Source: Desulfovibrio sp. DV (GTDB lineage: Bacteria; Desulfobacterota; Desulfovibrionia; Desulfovibrionales; Desulfovibrionaceae). Taken from it: DNA of 64,000 nt. The stretch's first letter is position 1. The number at the start of each line of letters is the position of its first letter. Where the stretch lies: the NCBI RefSeq assembly GCF_001936595.1, contig NZ_MLBG01000009.1, positions 1 to 64,000 of the forward strand. Direction: 5' to 3'. Below are positions 36,782-46,373 of this stretch, piece after piece. Below the pieces are notes generated by a model that had not been told where the DNA came from, made no database searches, and saw only the letters and a program-made list of their open reading frames with translations. Both the position numbers and the translations under genes were made by a program.

Positions 36782-37525
36782 ATGACTCAAAACACTGAAT
36801 ATACCCGTCCCGCCACATGGGGCGATGTTGTTCGCATTGTAAAATTATTAAACCAATATGAAGTCGACTTTTTTATTGTTGGCGGTTATGCGCTTGCAGC
36901 ACATGACCTAGTTAGGAACACTCTGGATGTTGACATTGCCGTCTCGCCCAGTCCTGAAAATTCAAAACGCTGGGTACTTGCTTTGTCTCATCTTCCAGAA
37001 GAAGCAACAAAAGAACTTATAGGAGAACACGATCCTTTTGAAGGTGATACATTACACGCAATTAGGATCAACGATGAAATCACGATTGACATCATGCCTT
37101 CAGTGGCGGGAATTCCATTTAATGAACTGAAGGACCACCGCCAATACAAAGAAATACAGGGCGAAATGATTCCCGTTCTCGACCTCCCAGGGCTTTTGAA
37201 AACAAAAAGGACAATGCGCCCGAAGGATCAAGCTGATGCAGTAATAATTGAAGCTGCAATCAAAGAAATTTCAGCAACACATAGCCTTACTCCCAACGAC
37301 AAAGACTTGATTTTCGCTGCAAGGAACTTTCTGGAAAGCCTATCCGAGTGCGGAAACACAAGAAAAGTTCCGCAGGTGGTTGTTAAAAATCTTATGAAAG
37401 CAGTGGATAAGTGTACGCGTCAATCTGGGGAGAGACAACTATTCCATCTTCTTGATAGAGAATTTGGAGATAGATCGCAAAAAATCAAAAAAACTATTCA
37501 AATAGAACAAGACAAGGGCCTTTGA
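36782..37525 (+). CDS. Nucleotidyltransferase-fold protein (toxin-like)
   Basis: 247 residues. The N-terminal VDFFIVGGYALAAHDLVRNTLDVDIAV carries the GG helix and the D-x-D metal pair of the pol-beta nucleotidyltransferase fold, with a further Asp in ITIDIMPSV. The C-terminal half is helical and not recognised. It is related in style to AbiEii/MNT-type proteins that modify tRNA or partner proteins. It shares the TGATGA junction with the resolvase gene. AT-rich composition points to separate ancestry from the transfer genes. Confidence 0.7.
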   Translation: MTQNTEYTRPATWGDVVRIVKLLNQYEVDFFIVGGYALAAHDLVRNTLDVDIAVSPSPENSKRWVLALSHLPEEATKELIGEHDPFEGDTLHAIRINDEITIDIMPSVAGIPFNELKDHRQYKEIQGEMIPVLDLPGLLKTKRTMRPKDQADAVIIEAAIKEISATHSLTPNDKDLIFAARNFLESLSECGNTRKVPQVVVKNLMKAVDKCTRQSGERQLFHLLDREFGDRSQKIKKTIQIEQDKGL

Positions 37526-38079
37526 TGATTCTCGGTTATGCGCGAGTCTCCACTAGCAAACAAGAACTTGAATCCCAAATACAGCGCCTAAAAGATGCTG
37601 GCGCTGATAAAATCTTTTCTGATGTCATAAGCGGGAAGCGCTTTGACCGTCCCGGCCTTTCCGAAATGATGTCCTTCGCGCGCGAGGGCGACACCCTGTG
37701 CGTGGTACGCCTGGATCGCCTCGGGCGATCCAGGAAAGAACTCCTGGAGATCATGGACCATCTCAAAGCACGCCAGGTGGAATTCCGCTCTCTGGAAGAG
37801 CAATTGGATACCACCACAGCGGCGGGCTTCCTGATCTTTCACGTCTTCGCCGCATTGACCGACTTTGAGCGCCGCCTCATAGCTGAACGCACCCGGGACG
37901 GTCTGGCCGTGGCCATGGCCAAGGGCCATATGCCGGGCCGGCCTAAGATCGAAACCGCCAAGATAACGCAAGCACAACTCCTTATTGCCGGCGGCTCTTC
38001 CAAGGCTTCGGCGGCCAGGACTGTGGGTATCAGCCTCTCCTCTCTATCTCGCCATCTCAAGAGTGTCGCATCCGAATAA
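37525..38079 (+). CDS. Serine recombinase (resolvase/invertase)
   Basis: 184 residues. The N-terminal catalytic domain begins MILGYARVSTSKQ (nucleophile Ser9 or Ser11 in RVSTS), with RLDRLGRSRKELLE, the long E-helix TAAGFLIFHVFAALTDFERRLIAERTRDGL, and a C-terminal helix-turn-helix (GGSSKASAARTVGISLSSLSRHL). It recombines DNA at res or inversion sites; the repeats on both sides are candidates. The ATG at 37525 overlaps the stop of the previous gene. The first half is AT-rich and the second GC-rich, suggesting a recombinant gene. Confidence 0.92.
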   Translation: MILGYARVSTSKQELESQIQRLKDAGADKIFSDVISGKRFDRPGLSEMMSFAREGDTLCVVRLDRLGRSRKELLEIMDHLKARQVEFRSLEEQLDTTTAAGFLIFHVFAALTDFERRLIAERTRDGLAVAMAKGHMPGRPKIETAKITQAQLLIAGGSSKASAARTVGISLSSLSRHLKSVASE

Positions 38080-38134
38080 ATGGGGCCGGGGAGAAGGCAC
38101 GTAAGCCCCCGGCTGAGGTAGATAATCTCCTGCC

Positions 38135-38209
38135 CGCATATTTTAGTCCTCCGCATCACTCAGGCCCTAGGCTCCTGCTTATTTTACCAATTGGCATACG
38201 GCTAAAATA
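38135..38209. repeat. res-like inverted repeat, copy 2
   Basis: CGCATATTTTAGTC (38135-38148) and GGCTAAAATA (38200-38209) form the arms. Together with the intervening CCTCCG and TGCTTATT...TGGC blocks it matches copy 1 at 36289-36367. It lies 55 bases past the resolvase stop. Confidence 0.6.
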
Positions 38210-38344
38210 AAAGAGTCCGCGGATTACCTTGTTGGGGAGACAGGCTTCAGCCAGTTCACCTTCCTCCGTCGGCTCAAACAGGCTTATATCCTCGTTCGTC
38301 GGGCCGGCTAGAACGCTGGCAATACCTGGATTCTTTTTTTCGTC

Positions 38345-38395
38345 TTTTCGTGCTTGCGTTCTTTTTTTCTTCGTGCAATAGTGTTTTCGTGCTTG
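38345..38395. repeat. TTCGTGC iterons upstream of the partition genes
   Basis: TTTTCGTGCTTG occurs at 38345-38356 and 38384-38395, and the core TTCGTGC once more at 38370-38376. They lie in a T-rich stretch just before the operon with ParA, so they may be a centromere-like site or the operator of that operon. Confidence 0.55.
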
Positions 38396-38423
38396 AACGA
38401 AAGCACACCCCCCGGAGGCAGAC

Positions 38424-38636
38424 ATGACCGAATACAACATCATGGTCAGCACGAACGGCGAAAAGGCAAAGTTAGGCTATGCCGGGTATAAATCCCTAGC
38501 ATCTGCCAAGCGCATGGCCAAGAGCGTAGCGCCCTGGCAACCAAATCGAGTTCCACATCTTGAGGCGTGGGTGGAGGACGACGAGGGCAAGAGGGTGTCC
38601 AAGGTCTATTCGACCGAAGCTGGAACCAGACCTTAA
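38424..38636 (+). CDS. Small hypothetical protein at the head of the partition operon
   Basis: 70 residues: MTEYNIMVSTNGEKAKLGYAGYKSLASAKRMAKSVAPWQ... LEAWVEDDEGKRVSKVYSTE. CGGAGG lies 5 bases before the ATG. It is basic in the middle and acidic after it, with no membrane segment or known motif. It reads into parA 18 bases later. A role as regulator of the operon is possible; nothing in the sequence proves it. Confidence 0.6.
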   Translation: MTEYNIMVSTNGEKAKLGYAGYKSLASAKRMAKSVAPWQPNRVPHLEAWVEDDEGKRVSKVYSTEAGTRP

Positions 38637-38654
38637 GAAAAGAGGGACGCGACC

Positions 38655-39290
38655 ATGAAAACCATAGTTCTTGCTAGCCAGAAAGGTGGCGCGGGAAAGA
38701 CCACCCTGGCCGCACACCTGGCCGTGATGGCAGAGCGGGCTGGAGACGGCCCATGCGTCCTGATCGACACAGACCCGCAGGCGAGCCTTGCGGCCTGGTG
38801 GAACGGACGCGAAGCGGAAGCGCCTGCCTTCGCACCCACAGCCTTGAAAGAACTTTCGGGCAAACTAGAGGCTTTGGCAAAGGCCAAGTTCCGATACGCC
38901 TTCGTTGACACCCCTCCAGCAATCACCGAGGCGATCCAAGCGGTGGTCTCCTTGGCGGATTTCGTCTTAATCCCGACCAGGCCGAGCCCCCACGATCTAC
39001 GCGCCGTGGGCAGCACTGTTGAATTGGCTTCTGGCTCAGGCCGCCAATTTGCCTTTGCCCTGACTCAGGCCAAGGCTAACTCACGACTGACCGTCCAGGC
39101 CATGGCCGCCTTATCAGAGCATGGGGTGGTCGCCCCTTCGATCATCCATGATCGTGTGGACTTCGCCTCGTCCATGATCGACGGGCGGACAGTCATGGAA
39201 ATCGATCAACGAGGACGTTCAGCTTTGGAGATTGGCGAGCTATGGACTTTCGTTAGAACACGAATGAATGGAAGCAAGAAAACACGATAG
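38655..39290 (+). CDS. parA: ParA-family partition ATPase
   Basis: 211 residues with the deviant Walker A QKGGAGKTT, A' DTDPQAS and Walker B FVDTPPA of small ParA proteins (type Ib-like, without an N-terminal helix-turn-helix). It should help keep the excised circular form of the element in dividing cells. A GAGGGACGCGACC leader with GAGG precedes the ATG. The ribbon-helix-helix protein follows by 15 bases and is the likely partner. Confidence 0.9.
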   Translation: MKTIVLASQKGGAGKTTLAAHLAVMAERAGDGPCVLIDTDPQASLAAWWNGREAEAPAFAPTALKELSGKLEALAKAKFRYAFVDTPPAITEAIQAVVSLADFVLIPTRPSPHDLRAVGSTVELASGSGRQFAFALTQAKANSRLTVQAMAALSEHGVVAPSIIHDRVDFASSMIDGRTVMEIDQRGRSALEIGELWTFVRTRMNGSKKTR

Positions 39291-39305
39291 CAAGAGGATG
39301 CCGCA

Positions 39306-39578
39306 ATGAGCACAAAGAAAAAAACCGCTGCTTTGTCCCCCGGGTTAGTTGCCGTCAAAGGTCAGGCCGGAGTCGACCCCAACGCGCCTGCAAGGCACCT
39401 TGAGAATGAGCCCGCTGGGGTACCTTCCAAGGCCTCTTCTCCATTAAACTTCAAAGTGGATGAGGTATTTCGCCGAAGATTTCGGCTGCGGGCAGCAGAG
39501 GCAGACTTGAAGCTCAACGAGCTGTTACGCCAGTCCTTGGATGCGTGGGAAGAAAAACAGGGCATAAAAACCGAATAA
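39306..39578 (+). CDS. Ribbon-helix-helix partition partner (ParB/ParG-like)
   Basis: 90 residues. A disordered basic N-terminus is followed by LNFKVDEVFRRRFRLRAAEADLKLNELLRQSLDAWEEKQG, a strand then two helices as in ParG/Arc-type DNA binders. AAGAGGATGCCGC with AGAGG precedes the ATG. Its position after parA suggests it binds the centromere, perhaps the TTCGTGC repeats, and stimulates ParA. Confidence 0.78.
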   Translation: MSTKKKTAALSPGLVAVKGQAGVDPNAPARHLENEPAGVPSKASSPLNFKVDEVFRRRFRLRAAEADLKLNELLRQSLDAWEEKQGIKTE

Positions 39579-39608
39579 ATCCGGATTCATGACCGCGAGA
39601 GAACGCCC

Positions 39609-40355
39609 ATGCCTATCCATAAGAATGAGATCGTATTTCATCCCTTTTGCGCAGAATCCTTGCCCAGTGAAGGCCAATTCGTAGTGCTTCGTTTGCAAGG
39701 CGACCTGATACCGCATACGGGAGGGGTAGTGTCGGAAGTAAGCGAAGATCAGAGCGGATTTATTCTTCGGCATGGCAACAAGGGAGACGGCTATTGCGAA
39801 CTATATACTTGTAAAAACGGCCTCGAATGGGCCTATTGGCCTGGTGCTAACTCGATTGCAACGTATTCGATTCTTGTGGAAAAAGCCAACTGGGATTTAG
39901 TTGATCCGCTGTTAGGCACCATGAGCGATTATGCTTTAGCGGAAAAGGCTGGATGTACACACTGCACAATACACCAAAGGCGAGTTAAATTTGGTATTCA
40001 ACCATATCAGGATCGTCCTGAATCAATACAATGGCAAGATTTTGACAAATTACTTGGAACAATGAATGATGGCGATTTGGCTAAAAAAATTGGGTGCGCG
40101 GAAACCGCTGTAAGGCGTAGACGCAAGAAGTTGGGAATTCAACGTGCTCTTGGTGAGTCGCCAAAAGAAGTGCTCAAGACGCTTTGCCGGTGTCCGGGGT
40201 GGGCTTACGGGCGATCACGAGAAGTCGGTTGGGTCTATGGCACCGAATCCAGGACGAGAAAAATATTAGACGGCCTATGCCACAGGGGATTGGTGGAGCT
40301 TCAGGGCGATAAATACTATCCGACCCAGGCCGGTACGGACGCGGCCACGATGTAG
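39609..40355 (+). CDS. Protein with two tandem helix-turn-helix units
   Basis: 248 residues. The N-terminal 95 residues are beta-rich and unrecognised. The middle holds two repeats: LLGTMSDYALAEKAGCTHCTIHQRRVKFGI and LLGTMNDGDLAKKIGCAETAVRRRRKKLGI, each a small helix-turn-helix unit. The C-terminus has a winged-helix-like end (SRTRKILDGLCHRGLVELQGDKYYPTQAG). It is probably a DNA-binding regulator or accessory partition protein. A terminator follows at 40386. Confidence 0.6.
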   Translation: MPIHKNEIVFHPFCAESLPSEGQFVVLRLQGDLIPHTGGVVSEVSEDQSGFILRHGNKGDGYCELYTCKNGLEWAYWPGANSIATYSILVEKANWDLVDPLLGTMSDYALAEKAGCTHCTIHQRRVKFGIQPYQDRPESIQWQDFDKLLGTMNDGDLAKKIGCAETAVRRRRKKLGIQRALGESPKEVLKTLCRCPGWAYGRSREVGWVYGTESRTRKILDGLCHRGLVELQGDKYYPTQAGTDAATM

Positions 40356-40385
40356 CCCCCTGTCGCCCTCCCCCACTCACCTCTC

Positions 40386-40407
40386 AAGCCCCGCCCTCGC
40401 GGGGCTT
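40386..40407 (+). terminator. Terminator of the partition operon
   Basis: AAGCCCCGC / GCGGGGCTT (40386-40394 with 40399-40407, loop CCTC), followed by CGCCTTTT. It lies 30 bases after the preceding stop. A second perfect hairpin, CGCATCTG-N6-CAGATGCG (40442-40463), lies just outside the insertion sequence. Confidence 0.75.
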
Positions 40408-40592
40408 CGCCTTTTCCGCTCCTTTGAAATCAGTTTTGCCACGCATCTGGCCAGGCAGATGCGAAACGCCCCACCTTCCTTTTGGGGTTCTTCGACGCCC
40501 GACGTGGAATTGACCTTGGCGATGTCCAAGCGGTAGTAAACTGATGGGGGCCATCACCCCTCGGCTGAAATCCATTTCCCCAGGGAGCTTGA

Positions 40593-40835
40593 ATGGTGTC
40601 GGAACTAATTTGTTACTGCTTCGGCTACAGTGCGGCTGATATTGAGCGTGATATTCTTAATAATGGAAGATCTACCATCATAGAACGCATTTTGGACGAG
40701 AAAAAAGCTGGTGGCTGCCAATGTAAGGAAATGAATCCTAAAGGTCGTTGATGCCTCTTCGACGTCCGCCAGGTGGTGGACAAGGCGGTGAGTGACAAAG
40801 GTATCACTCCAATCTCTCCTAAAGTGACGCTCTAG
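40593..40835 (+). CDS. Candidate selenoprotein: CopZ-N/BFD-like [2Fe-2S]/Zn-type small protein (UGA at codon 53)
   Basis: Read with the UGA at 40749-40751 as Sec, the gene gives 80 residues. LICYCFGYSAADIERDILNNG, then RSTIIERILDEKKAGGCQC, then NPKGR-U-CLFDVRQVVDKAV match, from memory, the N-terminal domain of the Archaeoglobus CopZ type, where the usual text is PKGRCCLGDV; UGA replaces the first Cys of that pair. A hairpin with loop AGGU begins 12 bases after the UGA. GGGAG lies 6 bases before the ATG and the frame ends at TAG 40833. If the UGA only stops, a 52-residue protein lacking the final Cys pair results. The gene sits between an ISL3 end and its transposase. Confidence 0.65.
40764..40781 (+). 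promoter_or_regulatory. Bacterial SECIS-like hairpin
   Basis: GTCCGCC (40764-40770) pairs fully with GGTGGAC (40775-40781), including one G-U pair; the loop is AGGT. It begins 12 bases after the in-frame UGA and the loop starts 20 bases after it. The E. coli fdhF SECIS has a loop beginning AGGU at nearly the same distance. Confidence 0.6.
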
Positions 40836-40909
40836 TGGTCCTTCGACATCGTCTGTGTAATTGACCGAGCCGAGGAGCGACAGGTAGTCCTCCTTTCGGG
40901 AGGGCTGAC

Positions 40910-42151
40910 ATGCGTACAGAAGACATCTTTGCCTTGGGCCTTGGGCTGGCCCAGCCTTGGAAACTCCTGAACCAGCGGCTCGACACCGAGAAGATTCCTC
41001 ACGAGCTCCATCTGGAGATCGGCGCGGACAGGGGCACCGGCTATCCGTGCCCCCGCTGCGGCAAGACCTGCAAGGCCCATGACTTCCAAGACTTCACCTG
41101 GCGACATCTCAATTTCTTCCAGCATCATTGCTACCTGACCGGTCGGGTGCCCAGGATCGAGTGCCCCGAGCACGGCATCCGCCGAGTCGAGGTGCCCTGG
41201 GCGCGGCCTGGCAGCAACTTCACCCTGCTCTTCGAGCAGGTGGTCATGACGCTTGCCAGGGAGATGCCCGTGGCCACCATCGCTGACTTTGTGGGCACGA
41301 CCGATAAGCGGCTGTGGCGGGTCATCAACCACTACGTGGCCGAGGCCATGCAGCGCCTGGACATCAGCGGGCTTGAGGCGTTCGGCCTGGATGAGACGGC
41401 CTGCAAGCGCGGGCATCGCTACGTGACCATCTTTATCGACCTGGACCGGGAGGAGCGCCCTGTGATCTTCGTCACCGAGGGCAAAGGCAAGGAGACGGTG
41501 CGGCGTTTCCGGGACCACCTCCTGGTCAAGGGCGGCCAGCCGGAGCGGGTGCTGGAGGTCGTAAGCGACATGTCGGGGAGCTTTGTGGCCGCCGTCGGAG
41601 AGCATTTCCCTAAGGCCGAGGTGACCGTGGACTGGTTCCACGTGGTCCAACTCTTCACCAAGGCCGTGGAGGAAGTGCGCAAGGCTGAGGCGAGGGAGCG
41701 GGCGTTGCCCAAGGGGACGCGCTGGGGAGTGCTCAAAGGTAGGGAGACCGCCAAGACGCAAACCCAGGCCGAGGCGTTGCAGGAACTTGAGGGCGAAGCC
41801 TTTGCCACGGGCATCGCCTACCGCATCAAGGAACAACTGCGCTGGATTCGCCGCGCCGAGACGGGCCAGGCCGCCAAGTGGAGGGCCACGAACTTCCTGA
41901 ACTATGCCCGCGAGCAGATCGGCTGCGAGCCGTTGCTCTCACCGATGGCCAAGGCGCTGAGAAGCTTTGAGAAGCACCTCGACCGCATCCTCTTTCGCTG
42001 GCGATCCTGGCATACCAACGCCCGGCTGGAGGGGCTCAACGGGCTCTTTCAGGCGGCCCGCGCCAGGGCGAGGGGATACAGGAACGTCGCCAACTTCATT
42101 ACCATGATCTACCTAATTGCCGCCCCGCTCGGGGACCTCTTCGTCATGTGA
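40910..42151 (+). CDS. ISL3-family transposase
   Basis: 413 residues. An N-terminal zinc-finger region (YPCPRCGKTC...RIECPEHG) is followed by a helix-turn-helix part (MPVATIADFVGTTDKRLWRVI) and a DDE catalytic core: FGLDETACKRGHRYVT, VVSDMSGSF and the final Glu in NARLEGLNGLFQ. GGGAGG lies 6 bases upstream. The stop overlaps the right inverted repeat by one base. All three acidic residues are present, so it should be active. Confidence 0.95.
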   Translation: MRTEDIFALGLGLAQPWKLLNQRLDTEKIPHELHLEIGADRGTGYPCPRCGKTCKAHDFQDFTWRHLNFFQHHCYLTGRVPRIECPEHGIRRVEVPWARPGSNFTLLFEQVVMTLAREMPVATIADFVGTTDKRLWRVINHYVAEAMQRLDISGLEAFGLDETACKRGHRYVTIFIDLDREERPVIFVTEGKGKETVRRFRDHLLVKGGQPERVLEVVSDMSGSFVAAVGEHFPKAEVTVDWFHVVQLFTKAVEEVRKAEARERALPKGTRWGVLKGRETAKTQTQAEALQELEGEAFATGIAYRIKEQLRWIRRAETGQAAKWRATNFLNYAREQIGCEPLLSPMAKALRSFEKHLDRILFRWRSWHTNARLEGLNGLFQAARARARGYRNVANFITMIYLIAAPLGDLFVM

Positions 42152-42214
42152 ATTCCACGTCGGGCGTCGAAGAACCCCTTTTGGACGGTGGGGCATCTCG
42201 CGCTTATGTCGAAC

Positions 42215-43012
42215 CTAGTCCTCAGAGTAGCCAGGCCGGACATGGTCGACAGAAGAAGATTCCCGGTTAAATACAGCGGCATTCCGGGACACATCGTTTG
42301 CAGGAACACCTGGTGGATTGCTCAAGGTAGCGTAATCGACCTCCAGTGTCCCACCACTTCCATCAAAAAATTCAATACCGACCTGCCCTGAAGACATGGT
42401 ATTGTCATCGGTGAAATATACTAAAGTTCCGTTGATGTAAAAATCTAAATGCGATCCTACAAAAACAGCCCGAAGGATATTCCAGTCATTTGGCTTAACA
42501 ACAGAGCTTGCGTTGCCAAAGTATAAATTTGTCCACTTTCCATGATACATGTAACCAATATAAAAATCTCCTGAATTTTGGTATCCAAACCAATACCCTG
42601 AATACCAGTCTTTTGAACTCGAAAGAGATGATGTATCGCCGCGCAAATACAGACCTACATCATTTGCCCCTGTCGTTCGTAGTTTCACATTGTAATCAAA
42701 ATTGTCGTAGGAGCCATTTTTGTATGCAATGCTGTACCACGCTTGCGAAGACGACCCTGCCACATAGGCGCTTCCATTAACGACTGACCATGATCCATAA
42801 GCCTGATTCCAGTTGCTTAAATCAGCCGTAAATTGCTCATTGAACTTAAAGTTACTGTTTCCCTTAGCACAAATAGTAGCTGGAATATCCAAAGTCAAAA
42901 GAGATACACAGCCACCTTGCTGCCCATGTGCCCGTTGAACCAAACACAGCAATATCGAAACAATTAAAAGCATCAACCAAACCACACCAGACGATACACG
43001 CATTATATTCAT
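42215..43012 (-). CDS. Secreted LamG/concanavalin-like beta-sandwich protein
   Basis: 265 residues with a signal peptide (VSILLCLVQRAHGQ). The body is a jelly-roll of the kind found in LamG and DUF1080-type carbohydrate-binding proteins: FTADLSNWNQAYGSWSVVNG, YNVKLRTTGANDVGLYLRG, NILRAVFVGSHLDFYINGTLVYFTDD. It is AT-rich compared with the transfer operon. It is the last gene of the minus-strand run, just after the collar-domain protein and before the insertion sequence. A surface or pilus-tip adhesin is possible; the position suggests it and nothing proves it. Confidence 0.65.
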   Translation of the reverse strand: MNIMRVSSGVVWLMLLIVSILLCLVQRAHGQQGGCVSLLTLDIPATICAKGNSNFKFNEQFTADLSNWNQAYGSWSVVNGSAYVAGSSSQAWYSIAYKNGSYDNFDYNVKLRTTGANDVGLYLRGDTSSLSSSKDWYSGYWFGYQNSGDFYIGYMYHGKWTNLYFGNASSVVKPNDWNILRAVFVGSHLDFYINGTLVYFTDDNTMSSGQVGIEFFDGSGGTLEVDYATLSNPPGVPANDVSRNAAVFNRESSSVDHVRPGYSED

Positions 43013-43046
43013 ACATCTACCCCTTATTACTTATCACTTCTGATCG

Positions 43047-43736
43047 TCATTGGACAGCACGGATTAAATATCGCACCATTGTATGCACTGGGGCAGTCTC
43101 CGTATCACCAAAATACGATCCTGTTTGGCCGGCCACATACGCTGTACCTGTCAAAGCTCCGCTGTTGAGTGAGGCAGAAATGCTGCCGCCACTCGTCGAT
43201 CCGTTGGACCACCCCATATTTGGAGATTGCGTTTGTCCCATATTAGGTGCGCCGTCGACCCACGTAAGAACAGTAGATGACCCAGTAACAGCCTGATAAG
43301 AATAGCTTTGCGGCGAAGCTGATCCTGAAACACCTAATGAGCTTAAGTTTCCACTTACAGGAGCATTCTGTCCTGGTACATTTACTGTATGGGTCTTGAT
43401 GGTATCCGAAAATTTAGTGCCTAAGAAAGTTTTTGACGTAGTCCCTCGTAAAAATTGATTGTTATAGTCAGGAACATTGCTTCCAACGATCGCACGCAGT
43501 TTGTCATATTGCGTTCCGGACGGCACGGCCTGGCCGTTGCACTCCAGCCACCGGCTGGCGTCGGGTGGAAATGACCTAGACGTCCACGGGATGACGGCCC
43601 CTACGGGATAGGTCCCCTGGCTGGTTACCGTGATCGGGGTGGGGTTAAAACTTGTTCCATCAGCGGCCACGCTGTACTGGCCGTGGCCCACGAGGCCCAG
43701 GGCCAGTAAGAAGATGATGCGCAGGATAGCGGTCAC
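43047..43736 (-). CDS. Secreted phage tail-collar-domain protein, possible adhesin
   Basis: 229 residues. A signal peptide (ILRIIFLLALGLVGHGQYSVAA) is followed by a collar domain: YPVGAVIPWTSRSFPPDASRWLECNGQAVPSGTQYDKLRAIVG and VPDYNNQFLRG, then a Ser/Gly-rich fibre part. Tail-collar domains form the tips of phage fibres, and the variable C-termini of PilV adhesins are of similar style. The GTG at 43736 lies one base after the topA stop and has GGAGG 8 bases before it. Cotranscription with the transfer genes suggests a role in recipient recognition. Confidence 0.72.
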   Translation of the reverse strand: MTAILRIIFLLALGLVGHGQYSVAADGTSFNPTPITVTSQGTYPVGAVIPWTSRSFPPDASRWLECNGQAVPSGTQYDKLRAIVGSNVPDYNNQFLRGTTSKTFLGTKFSDTIKTHTVNVPGQNAPVSGNLSSLGVSGSASPQSYSYQAVTGSSTVLTWVDGAPNMGQTQSPNMGWSNGSTSGGSISASLNSGALTGTAYVAGQTGSYFGDTETAPVHTMVRYLIRAVQ

Positions 43737-43737
43737 G

Positions 43738-45744
43738 CTAATTGCCTCCGTTCTTCTTGGCGTCAAAAGTAGGCTGCCCGCCGGCATCCGGAAAGGACTC
43801 TTTGCATTTCGGATATCCCGAGCATCCCCAGAAATTGTAGCCTCCGGCACCATCCTTTATGCGATGGATCAAGGGCTTCTTGCATTTCGGACACAGGTAG
43901 TTGCTAAGAGGAGCCTTTTGACGGGCCTCCAGGCGTTCCCCAGGCTTGCCGCCTGCGTTGGCGAATGTCGCAGAGCAATCCGGATAGCCCGAGCATCCCC
44001 AGAAATCGTAGCCTCGGTCTTTCTTGCCCGCTGGCTTGGTGATCCGGCGCAAAGGCTTGCCGCAGGCCGGACACGCATGGGAGGTGAGGGACACGAAGCC
44101 TTTCAGCTCGCCTTCGAGGCTCGTGTGGAATTGGCGCATGACCTCGACATAGCGAGCTTTACCGGCCGCCAGGGCATCGAGGCTTTCTTCCATGCCCTGG
44201 GTATAGGAGTAGTCCAGAAAGCCGAAGTGGCTGAGTAGCGCATCCACCACGATCTCGCCGGCTTCCGTTGGCACCAAGTTGCGTTTTTCCAGGCACACGT
44301 ACTCCCTGGCCATGATGTTTTCCAAAATGGCGGCATAGGTGGACGGCCGACCGATGCCGCGCTCCTCCAAAGCCTTGACGAGCGACGCCTCGGTATACCG
44401 TGCCGGCGGTTTGGTCCTGTGCACCGTCACAAAGCCGGCTCCCACCGTCAGTTGGCTGCCGACCTGGAGACGGGGCACGAGATTCTCTTTTTCCGGCTCG
44501 CCTTCCATGGCATCATCTTTTTCCAGCACCACCTTCCAGCCCGGCTTGACCAAGGTTCGCCCTTTGGCCTGAAAGACAGGGCCTTGATCCGAAATGACAT
44601 TGCCGGCCAATTGGACCGTGCGTACGGCATAGGTCGCGTCATCGAGCTGGCTGGCCAGAGTACGTCGGCGGATCAGCGTATAGAGGGCCTTCTCTCCATC
44701 GCTCTCTCCAACCTCTTCGACCTCGATGTGGGTGGGGCGGATGGCTTCGTGGGCCTCCTGCGCGCCATCCTTGCTCTTCCACCGCCGGGGCTTGGCCACC
44801 ACCGGCCAATCCCGGCTGCGGCAATACTCCTGGATAGCGGCCACAGCTTCGTCACTGATGTTTGGCGAATCCGTTCGCATGTAGGTGATATGGCCAGCCT
44901 CATAGAGCCGCTGCGCGAGTCCCATGGTTTCCTTCGGGGATATCTTGAGGGCCGCCGAAGCCGCCTGCTGGAGCGTCGATGTGGTGAACGGAGCCGGCGG
45001 CGCGGACCGGCTCTCCGTTTCCTCGCAGCTCAGGACCGTGACTTTACGAGTCTCGGTGGCGACCCGGGTGGCCAGTTCCTTGTCCAGCAAGTAGCTTTGA
45101 CCTGGTTCCAGCCAATCCTTGACCAACCAGGTGGCCACCCAGCCGGGGGTGATGTTTTCGACATGGTCAAAAATGAGATCGACCCCGTAATGTGTCGTGA
45201 CCGTAAACGCTCGAATTTCGCGCTCACGATCCACGACCAGACGCAGAGCCGGGCTCTGGACGCGCCCGGCCGACTTTTTGCCGCCCACAACGCGCGAAAG
45301 GGGGCCGGAGACCTTGTAGCCCACAAGGCGGTCCAGGACGCGCCGACCTTCCTGGGCCGCAACCAAGTTCATGTCCAGGCCACGCGGGCTTGCCAGCGCC
45401 TTTTTGACCGCCTGTTCGGTTATTTCGGCGTAGGTGACGCGCTTCGGGTCTTTGAGCTGCAAGGCGTCGGCCAGATGCCAGGCGATAGCCTCTCCCTCCC
45501 GGTCGGGGTCCGTGGCCAGATACACGGCCTGGGCACCTTGTACGGCCTTGGCCAGTTTGGCGATCACGCCTCTCCCCCGTTCGGTGGGCAGATAGCGCGG
45601 CCGGTAGGAGGTCTCGTTGACGCCGATGTCATCCCTGGGCAGATCGCGCACGTGGCCGACGCTGGCCATGACCTGCCATCCTTCACCCAGGAACCCTTGT
45701 ATTTTTTTGATCTTGCCAGGGGATTCAACAATCAAAAGGTTCAT
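43738..45744 (-). CDS. topA: Type IA DNA topoisomerase
   Basis: 668 residues. A TOPRIM domain (LLIVESPGKIKKIQGFL, ATDPDREGEAIAWHL) is followed by the central ring with active Tyr288 in YMRTDSPNIS and RPSTYA, and two C-terminal zinc ribbons (CPACGKPLRR...CSGYPDCSATF and CPKCKKPL...CSGYPKCKESF). It relaxes negatively supercoiled DNA. Topoisomerases of this class are common in large conjugative elements, where they help transfer or re-circularisation. GAGG lies 6 bases before the ATG. The lytic transglycosylase gene is just upstream. Confidence 0.95.
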   Translation of the reverse strand: MNLLIVESPGKIKKIQGFLGEGWQVMASVGHVRDLPRDDIGVNETSYRPRYLPTERGRGVIAKLAKAVQGAQAVYLATDPDREGEAIAWHLADALQLKDPKRVTYAEITEQAVKKALASPRGLDMNLVAAQEGRRVLDRLVGYKVSGPLSRVVGGKKSAGRVQSPALRLVVDREREIRAFTVTTHYGVDLIFDHVENITPGWVATWLVKDWLEPGQSYLLDKELATRVATETRKVTVLSCEETESRSAPPAPFTTSTLQQAASAALKISPKETMGLAQRLYEAGHITYMRTDSPNISDEAVAAIQEYCRSRDWPVVAKPRRWKSKDGAQEAHEAIRPTHIEVEEVGESDGEKALYTLIRRRTLASQLDDATYAVRTVQLAGNVISDQGPVFQAKGRTLVKPGWKVVLEKDDAMEGEPEKENLVPRLQVGSQLTVGAGFVTVHRTKPPARYTEASLVKALEERGIGRPSTYAAILENIMAREYVCLEKRNLVPTEAGEIVVDALLSHFGFLDYSYTQGMEESLDALAAGKARYVEVMRQFHTSLEGELKGFVSLTSHACPACGKPLRRITKPAGKKDRGYDFWGCSGYPDCSATFANAGGKPGERLEARQKAPLSNYLCPKCKKPLIHRIKDGAGGYNFWGCSGYPKCKESFPDAGGQPTFDAKKNGGN

Positions 45745-45752
45745 GTACTACC

Positions 45753-46373
45753 TCACTTTTCGTTGCTGGCCATTTCGCGACGTTTGACGACCATTGGCGA
45801 AGCTGCCGGTGACACCGTCTGTCGCGGACTCGAAGAGGAAGACGACACCATCGCAGGAGCTTTGCTGCCGAGTCTGGCCAGGACAGCGGCGGCGTAGGCC
45901 CGCCCGCGTTCAGGGTTTCGTTCCAAGGGGGTGTGATAGGTGGCCACGGCCTCCCAGGTCAGGCCATAACGCTTGATGGCTTGGGCCAGTATCCAGACGC
46001 CCACCTGGACGTTGCCGCGAGGCTCGAACACCAGCTCCAGGGGGAGGTGGTAGCGCCGAAGCCACTGCGCATTGATTTGCATGAGGCCGATGTCGAAGGA
46101 GAGCCCGGCGGCAAGCGCGGCCCGGGCCACCGCCAAAGCCTCCTCCTTCGAAGCGTGGAGGATCGGTCGGCCGGCTATGTTCATGACCCATGGCCGTCCG
46201 CCGCTTTCCTGACCAGCGATGGCCAGGGCCAACGGCTTCGGCACGCCGTAGCGTTCGCAGGGACCATCGAAGAGGCTGACCAGGTCTTCGGAAGATTGAG
46301 CCCAGACAGGGGAGCCCGCGGCAAGCAGCACGATCAGGGCCATGCCGGCGCAGACTTGGCGGATCGTGCTCAT
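45753..46373 (-). CDS. Lytic transglycosylase (VirB1/PilT-R64-like)
   Basis: 206 residues with a signal peptide (LLAAGSPVWAQ) and an SLT fold: the catalytic Glu in LAIAGQESGGRPWVMN, then FDIGLMQINAQWLRRY and AVATYHTPLERNPERGRAYAAAV. It opens peptidoglycan for the transfer apparatus. The Ser-rich C-terminus is disordered. Its ATG overlaps the stop of the primase gene (ATGA). In IncI plasmids the gene called pilT has this function. Confidence 0.9.
   Translation of the reverse strand: MSTIRQVCAGMALIVLLAAGSPVWAQSSEDLVSLFDGPCERYGVPKPLALAIAGQESGGRPWVMNIAGRPILHASKEEALAVARAALAAGLSFDIGLMQINAQWLRRYHLPLELVFEPRGNVQVGVWILAQAIKRYGLTWEAVATYHTPLERNPERGRAYAAAVLARLGSKAPAMVSSSSSSPRQTVSPAASPMVVKRREMASNEK

Follow-up and report, generated by a model that had tools for sequence, protein, structure and literature searches.

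The DNA analysed here, hereafter the window, is a stretch of 64,000 nucleotides from the sulfate-reducing bacterium Desulfovibrio sp. DV. At one locus it holds a full-length ISL3-family transposase preceded by two left-hand inverted repeats, and between these repeats a short gene whose frame contains a single UGA codon. The features referred to below are as follows.

40478–40485, no strand: left copy of the 8-bp target-site duplication CCTTTTGG, an exact match to 42177–42184
40486–40513, + strand: outer left terminal inverted repeat, the left end in use; 27 of 28 bases equal to the right repeat, with a degraded copy upstream of the gene in a genome of another genus (G016)
40514–40592, + strand: leader, with the Shine-Dalgarno sequence GGGAG at 40583–40587; read from the sequence and conserved in G016
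40593–40835, + strand: passenger gene for a predicted 80-residue Bfd/CopZ-type [2Fe-2S] selenoprotein, from the frame, domain matches and homologue alignment
40749–40751, + strand: UGA codon 53, predicted to be read as selenocysteine; shared as TGA by 89 distinct homologues, against TGC in two
40764–40781, + strand: candidate SECIS hairpin, 7-bp stem, loop AGGU at 40771–40774; supported by comparing homologues with synonymous recodings and with slid pairings
40837–40864, + strand: inner, decayed left inverted repeat, the presumed original ISL3 left end; 8 of 28 mismatches, standard distance to the transposase, no target duplication
40910–42151, + strand: ISL3-family transposase, 413 amino acids, full length; Pfam PF01610, PF13542 and PF14690, NF033550 over its cut-off
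42149–42176, − strand: right terminal inverted repeat, from the repeat match
42177–42184, no strand: right copy of the duplication CCTTTTGG, an exact match to the left copy

The UGA codon and the hairpin behind it

The frame of the passenger gene opens with ATG at 40593, carries its lone in-frame TGA at 40749–40751 and closes with TAG at 40833, so that the predicted product, with U for selenocysteine, is MVSELICYCFGYSAADIERDILNNGRSTIIERILDEKKAGGCQCKEMNPKGRUCLFDVRQVVDKAVSDKGITPISPKVTL. Gene finders end the gene at the UGA, and standard gene calling loses the last third of the protein there. TGA is in frame in 35 of the 36 strong family matches (E <= 1.4e-13; 199 genomes of the family), the single exception (L045) being out of frame through one additional base immediately 5' of TGATG. 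A wider set was made up of the family matches, named genomes and viral contigs, counted as distinct sequences that keep the motif; here a search for Cys or Sec at position 53, proposed by the earlier note, finds TGA in 89 and TGC in two (L122 and L161). The TGA-bearing homologues span many phyla. The Sec codon aligns with Cys of homologues, the frame downstream of it is conserved, and 14 alignment columns are invariant, among them C7, C9, C44, U53 and C54.

The hairpin GUCCGCC-AGGU-GGUGGAC starts 12 nt after the UGA, with its loop starting 19 nt after it. Its folding energy is unremarkable alone (z = -1.54, a single-sequence z-score) and was set aside as SECIS evidence. Some of the hairpin's conservation comes from the protein, since conserved residues are encoded in it as well; this is addressed by a recoding control in which synonymous codons are drawn from the family's own usage. 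The mean number of stem pairs is 6.58 of 7, against 4.47 in the synonymous recodings (maximum 4.75), and pairings slid by 1–3 bases give 2.2 to 4.5 pairs. All seven pairs are present in 55 of the 89 homologues, compared with a mean of 1.9 and a maximum of 7 after recoding, these counts being taken from related sequences and not from independent events. The codon for Arg59 is CGC in 82 of 83 sequences, while many codons occur at other Arg positions, and the pair C40766–G40779 (window numbering) is changed from C-G to T-A on both sides in eight sequences. The two Cys forms keep five and one of the stem pairs. Under the bSECISearch rule, at least one of the two leading bases of a bacterial SECIS loop is a G, and this holds for every loop variant of the 89 sequences. 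Between the window and G016, synonymous differences are suppressed 3' of the UGA (pS 0.11 after it versus 0.66 before it). Judged from these alignments, the hairpin is conserved well beyond coding need, which points to a constraint at the RNA level. An Rfam scan gave no convincing match, and a promoter scan found none in the leader and one weak match inside the passenger gene.

The host genome (4.85 Mb, 99.8% complete) contains selB, with a score over the cut-off, selA on the same contig (C123), selD, and selC as a tRNA-Sec detected by both Rfam and ARAGORN. It also carries, downstream of a radA-like gene, a second UGA-containing gene of the same family. The host selD (L163, G000:C39:9056-9973) has an in-frame TGA and is probably a selenoprotein gene itself.

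Because the UGA and the frame behind it are kept in homologues, the hairpin appears to be under RNA-level constraint and the Sec genes are present, we regard the reading of codon 53 as selenocysteine as strongly supported. It would be decoded by SelB with Sec-tRNA by way of the hairpin directly behind the UGA. The alternative is that the UGA is a true stop, the gene specifying a 52-residue protein, being a pseudogene of a Cys form or containing a sequencing error. The gene finders do stop here, and a 52-residue product would keep CxC and CxC; against this, 89 distinct sequences, spread over many phyla, have TGA at this codon (which rules out a sequencing error turning a Cys codon into TGA), the downstream frame is conserved, the hairpin is constrained and the Sec machinery is at hand, and we find a true stop scarcely credible. 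The earlier note, which had proposed a selenoprotein with this frame, Shine-Dalgarno sequence, UGA and TAG, a 7-bp hairpin with loop AGGU 12 bases past the UGA, and which had pointed to selA, selB, selC and selD as a check, is borne out on each of these.

Ends of the element and its history

The transposase matches the Pfam model DDE_Tnp_ISL3 (E = 2e-55) and the NCBIfam model transpos_ISL3 (NF033550; E = 7.8e-85, 285 bits versus a cut-off of 180). Terminal inverted repeats and an 8-bp target duplication, as in ISL3 elements, are both found: the composite unit 40486–42176 is 1691 bp long and has the exact duplication CCTTTTGG on both sides. The passenger gene is located between the outer (40486) and the inner (40837) left end, and the inner repeat differs from the outer one at 8 of 28 positions. 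Measured from the inner end, the unit 40837–42176 is 1340 bp, the standard length. Standard ISL3 relatives are 1339–1358 bp and are without the selenoprotein gene; their ends are GGTTCTTCGACG or GGGTCTTCGACG on both sides, and when ends are assigned by this rule, L052 (1339 bp, CAAATTTT) and L055 (1358 bp, TTATAATA), neither of which has a passenger, also show exact 8-bp duplications.

Because the duplication CCTTTTGG flanks the whole 1691-bp unit, the gene and the transposase most likely moved together, as judged from these ends. A simple chromosomal neighbour of the insertion sequence was set aside, as the target duplication is at the outer repeat. In this explanation an ordinary ISL3 element (40837–42176) would have inserted beside a chromosomal or plasmid selenoprotein gene that had an old solo repeat upstream. 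The standard length of 1340 bp and the standard spacing of the inner repeat would agree with such an insertion, as would G016, in which a solo repeat is found upstream of the gene and no transposase is present; the 8-bp duplication, however, is at the outer and not the inner repeat (GCTCTAGT versus CCTTTTGG), and the right end is matched by the outer repeat and not by the inner one. We consider this explanation unlikely.

Comparison with G016 provides further insight into how the composite may have arisen. The outer repeat, leader and gene align with that genome over 324 bp at 81%; the outer repeat there is degraded and no right inverted repeat is found beside the remnant in the 7.5 kb examined. 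Before the UGA, dS is 1.58 and dN 0.10, values which indicate that the passenger gene is under purifying selection. It could also be imagined that an ISL3 element was already in place and received the gene together with the inner repeat immediately inward of its left end, the duplication dating from an earlier, gene-free insertion. This is compatible with the outer duplication, but it would require the inner repeat to have been placed precisely at the usual distance from the transposase, and G016 already has outer repeat, leader and gene as one colinear unit; it seems to us quite improbable, more so than insertion beside the gene. We favour instead a sequence of events in which an ordinary ISL3 element, consisting of the inner repeat, the transposase and the right repeat, would have joined an adjacent unit of outer repeat, leader and gene, after which the outer repeat would have taken over as the left end and the composite would have inserted at the present site as one unit, duplicating 8 bp. 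The element may still be able to transpose.

Searches of 288 genomes of the family and 348 of the class turned up no further complete composite, and the family search gave no empty site, which would read CACCTTCCTTTTGGACGGTGGGG. A plasmid record collection gave ISL3 transposase similarity only, and a phage record collection gave no match. The earlier note was right to place the gene inside an ISL3-family element, with repeats ending at 40486 and 42176 and CCTTTTGG on both sides. Its statement that the gene travels with the insertion sequence holds in part: the duplication encloses gene and transposase, but one complete element and one remnant are all that we find, and the other intact copies of the ISL3 element, to which it had also looked for the gene, do not contain it.

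Some further observations concern the insertion site and related elements. The site is an imperfect palindrome around TTTT (GCGAAACGCCCCACC...GGTGGGGCATCTCGC; 40461–40485 joined with 42185–42201) situated between two convergent genes. This is possibly a target preference; the arms of the palindrome are inverted and so do not explain the direct duplication CCTTTTGG. In an ISL3 copy of G080 (L053:1333-2805), an additional inverted repeat lies 134 bp beyond the standard right end; about 69 nt of the left end are repeated there in inverted orientation (81%), and neither end has a target duplication. Duplication of an end may recur in this ISL3 group. The surroundings of the element in the window (36782–46373) include a serine resolvase, a ParA-like ATPase, topoisomerase I, a lytic transglycosylase and a weak phage tail-collar match, and look like a mobile element themselves. 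Elsewhere, two species of one genus (L025 and L026; L173 and L174) have an identical family protein and identical neighbour genes on 21-kb contigs, which suggests a recent exchange, perhaps by plasmid.

The protein and its possible function

The 80-residue protein has a CopZ-like Fer2_BFD domain and a GxUC motif, the domain matches being significant but below the curated cut-offs. Pfam Fer2_BFD is matched at E = 4e-4, below cut-off, and NF047645 at E = 6e-14, with 52 bits versus a cut-off of 100 and over model positions 86–137 of 138 only. As the match begins at position 86, the first part, which in CopZ would contain the zinc site, is absent here. The earlier note had recognised a CopZ N-terminal module with both a [2Fe-2S] cluster and zinc; of this the Bfd-like [2Fe-2S] part stands and the zinc part does not. 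The invariant residues C7, C9, C44 and C54 are candidate ligands of the [2Fe-2S] cluster. Searched against the PDB, the family profile finds 2hu9 at E = 0.0015, with its Cys-Cys opposite U53-C54, so that the UGA does replace the first Cys of a final CC pair, as had been proposed and as the Cys of L122 and L161 also indicates. We take 2hu9 to be the N-terminal domain of A. fulgidus CopZ, although the entry is labelled 'Mercuric transport protein periplasmic component'. A phmmer search of the PDB with the single protein gave only chance matches, such as beta-2-microglobulin. The AlphaFold model of the selenoprotein is confident (mean pLDDT 87), and its best fold match, a weak one, is Bfd (E = 0.78).

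Neighbouring genes of relatives were counted at 91 loci, with flanks of 1.5–3 kb (5 kb for viral contigs) that are often ended by contig edges; the values are raw counts with no enrichment statistic. They include ArsP_1 permease (13), TauE (13), ArsR (7), LMWPc of the arsenate reductase type (6), Thioredoxin_3 (6), MerT-HMA (5) and a MerA-like reductase (4), and, with TauE left aside, 20 of the 91 loci have one or more of them. Viral contig L160 carries merR, merT-HMA and merA in that order, followed by the selenoprotein-family gene 24 nt behind merA. This mer operon and gene (L160:2510-5228, IMGVR_UViG_3300036543_000108) adjoin phage baseplate and virion-structural genes, and the contig shares 98.6% identity across 6.2 kb with Ectothiorhodospira shaposhnikovii (L094), a species with selB in its genome.

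These ars and mer neighbourhoods favour a role in the handling of mercury or arsenic, and the likely function of the protein is to handle a soft metal or metalloid by way of its selenol; it would bind or reduce Hg or As through the Sec53-Cys54 pair beside the cluster. A different possibility is that the selenoprotein acts in redox or iron-sulfur trafficking and has no connection with metal or metalloid resistance, the ars and mer neighbours being incidental. Most loci have no ars or mer neighbour in the stretch seen, and neither the IS-borne gene nor the host paralogue has a metal gene beside it there; the weak best fold match, Bfd, is a ferredoxin acting in iron release. Against this, ArsP, ArsR, LMWPc, MerT and MerA recur as neighbours in lineages far apart, and in one case the gene directly follows merA. 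We treat trafficking as a serious but somewhat doubtful candidate.

Taken as a whole, a 1691-bp ISL3 element with a selenoprotein passenger, joined as a unit and then moved, and with a likely role in soft-metal or metalloid handling, is in our judgement a highly probable explanation. That a functional selenoprotein for resistance to soft metals or metalloids is spread by the insertion sequence, with a benefit confined to Sec-decoding hosts, we put forward tentatively, giving it a little less than an even chance.

Comparison with known systems

The earlier note could not say whether the family had been described; it has, and is not new. In excerpts of two reviews (PMC9312934 and PMC13188914) it appears as '(2Fe-2S)-binding protein (copper chaperone CopZ family) form 1', cd10141, credited to Zhang and Gladyshev 2008, and one of the two gives the motif GxUC; the term form 1 is absent from the main text of Zhang and Gladyshev 2008. 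The passenger protein shares with form 1 the CopZ-like Bfd-type [2Fe-2S] domain, with Sec first in the final pair, and the motif G-x-U-C (here G-R-U-C), the example WP_245779778.1 being set beside it by description only. The same excerpts (PMC9312934, PMC13188914) mention neither carriage by an insertion sequence nor a mer or ars neighbourhood for form 1, and give the family only as predicted; the neighbourhoods described above suggest for it a testable role in Hg or As handling. The family of NF045877 CopZ_Nterm_CU (Csac_0668, 'form 2') belongs to the same domain superfamily and also consists of selenoproteins, but has Sec second in the pair (CU) and a model of 161 positions, and is matched at 24 bits versus a cut-off of 190. 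NF047645 CopZ_Nterm_CC and 2hu9 have a CxC ... C ... NPxGRCC pattern that can be aligned with the passenger protein, but differ in having Cys for Sec and an extra N-terminal part of about 85 model positions.

Since a selenoprotein gene is functional only where the host has Sec machinery, its occurrence as cargo of a small insertion sequence, and that of a phage-borne mer relative, bear directly on how selenoproteins spread. No earlier report of a selenoprotein inside an insertion sequence was found in the literature searched, most subscription papers being outside the search. The closest parallel is ISPpu12/ISPpu12a (PMC4133298, PMC4447125), likewise of the ISL3 family and with a metal-related passenger, which carries a lipoprotein signal peptidase, a metal antiporter and tnpR, and differs in these passengers, in its larger size (3372 bp) and in having no selenoprotein. 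The element described here joins a known selenoprotein family to a known kind of passenger-carrying insertion sequence, a combination that is, as far as we have searched, new.
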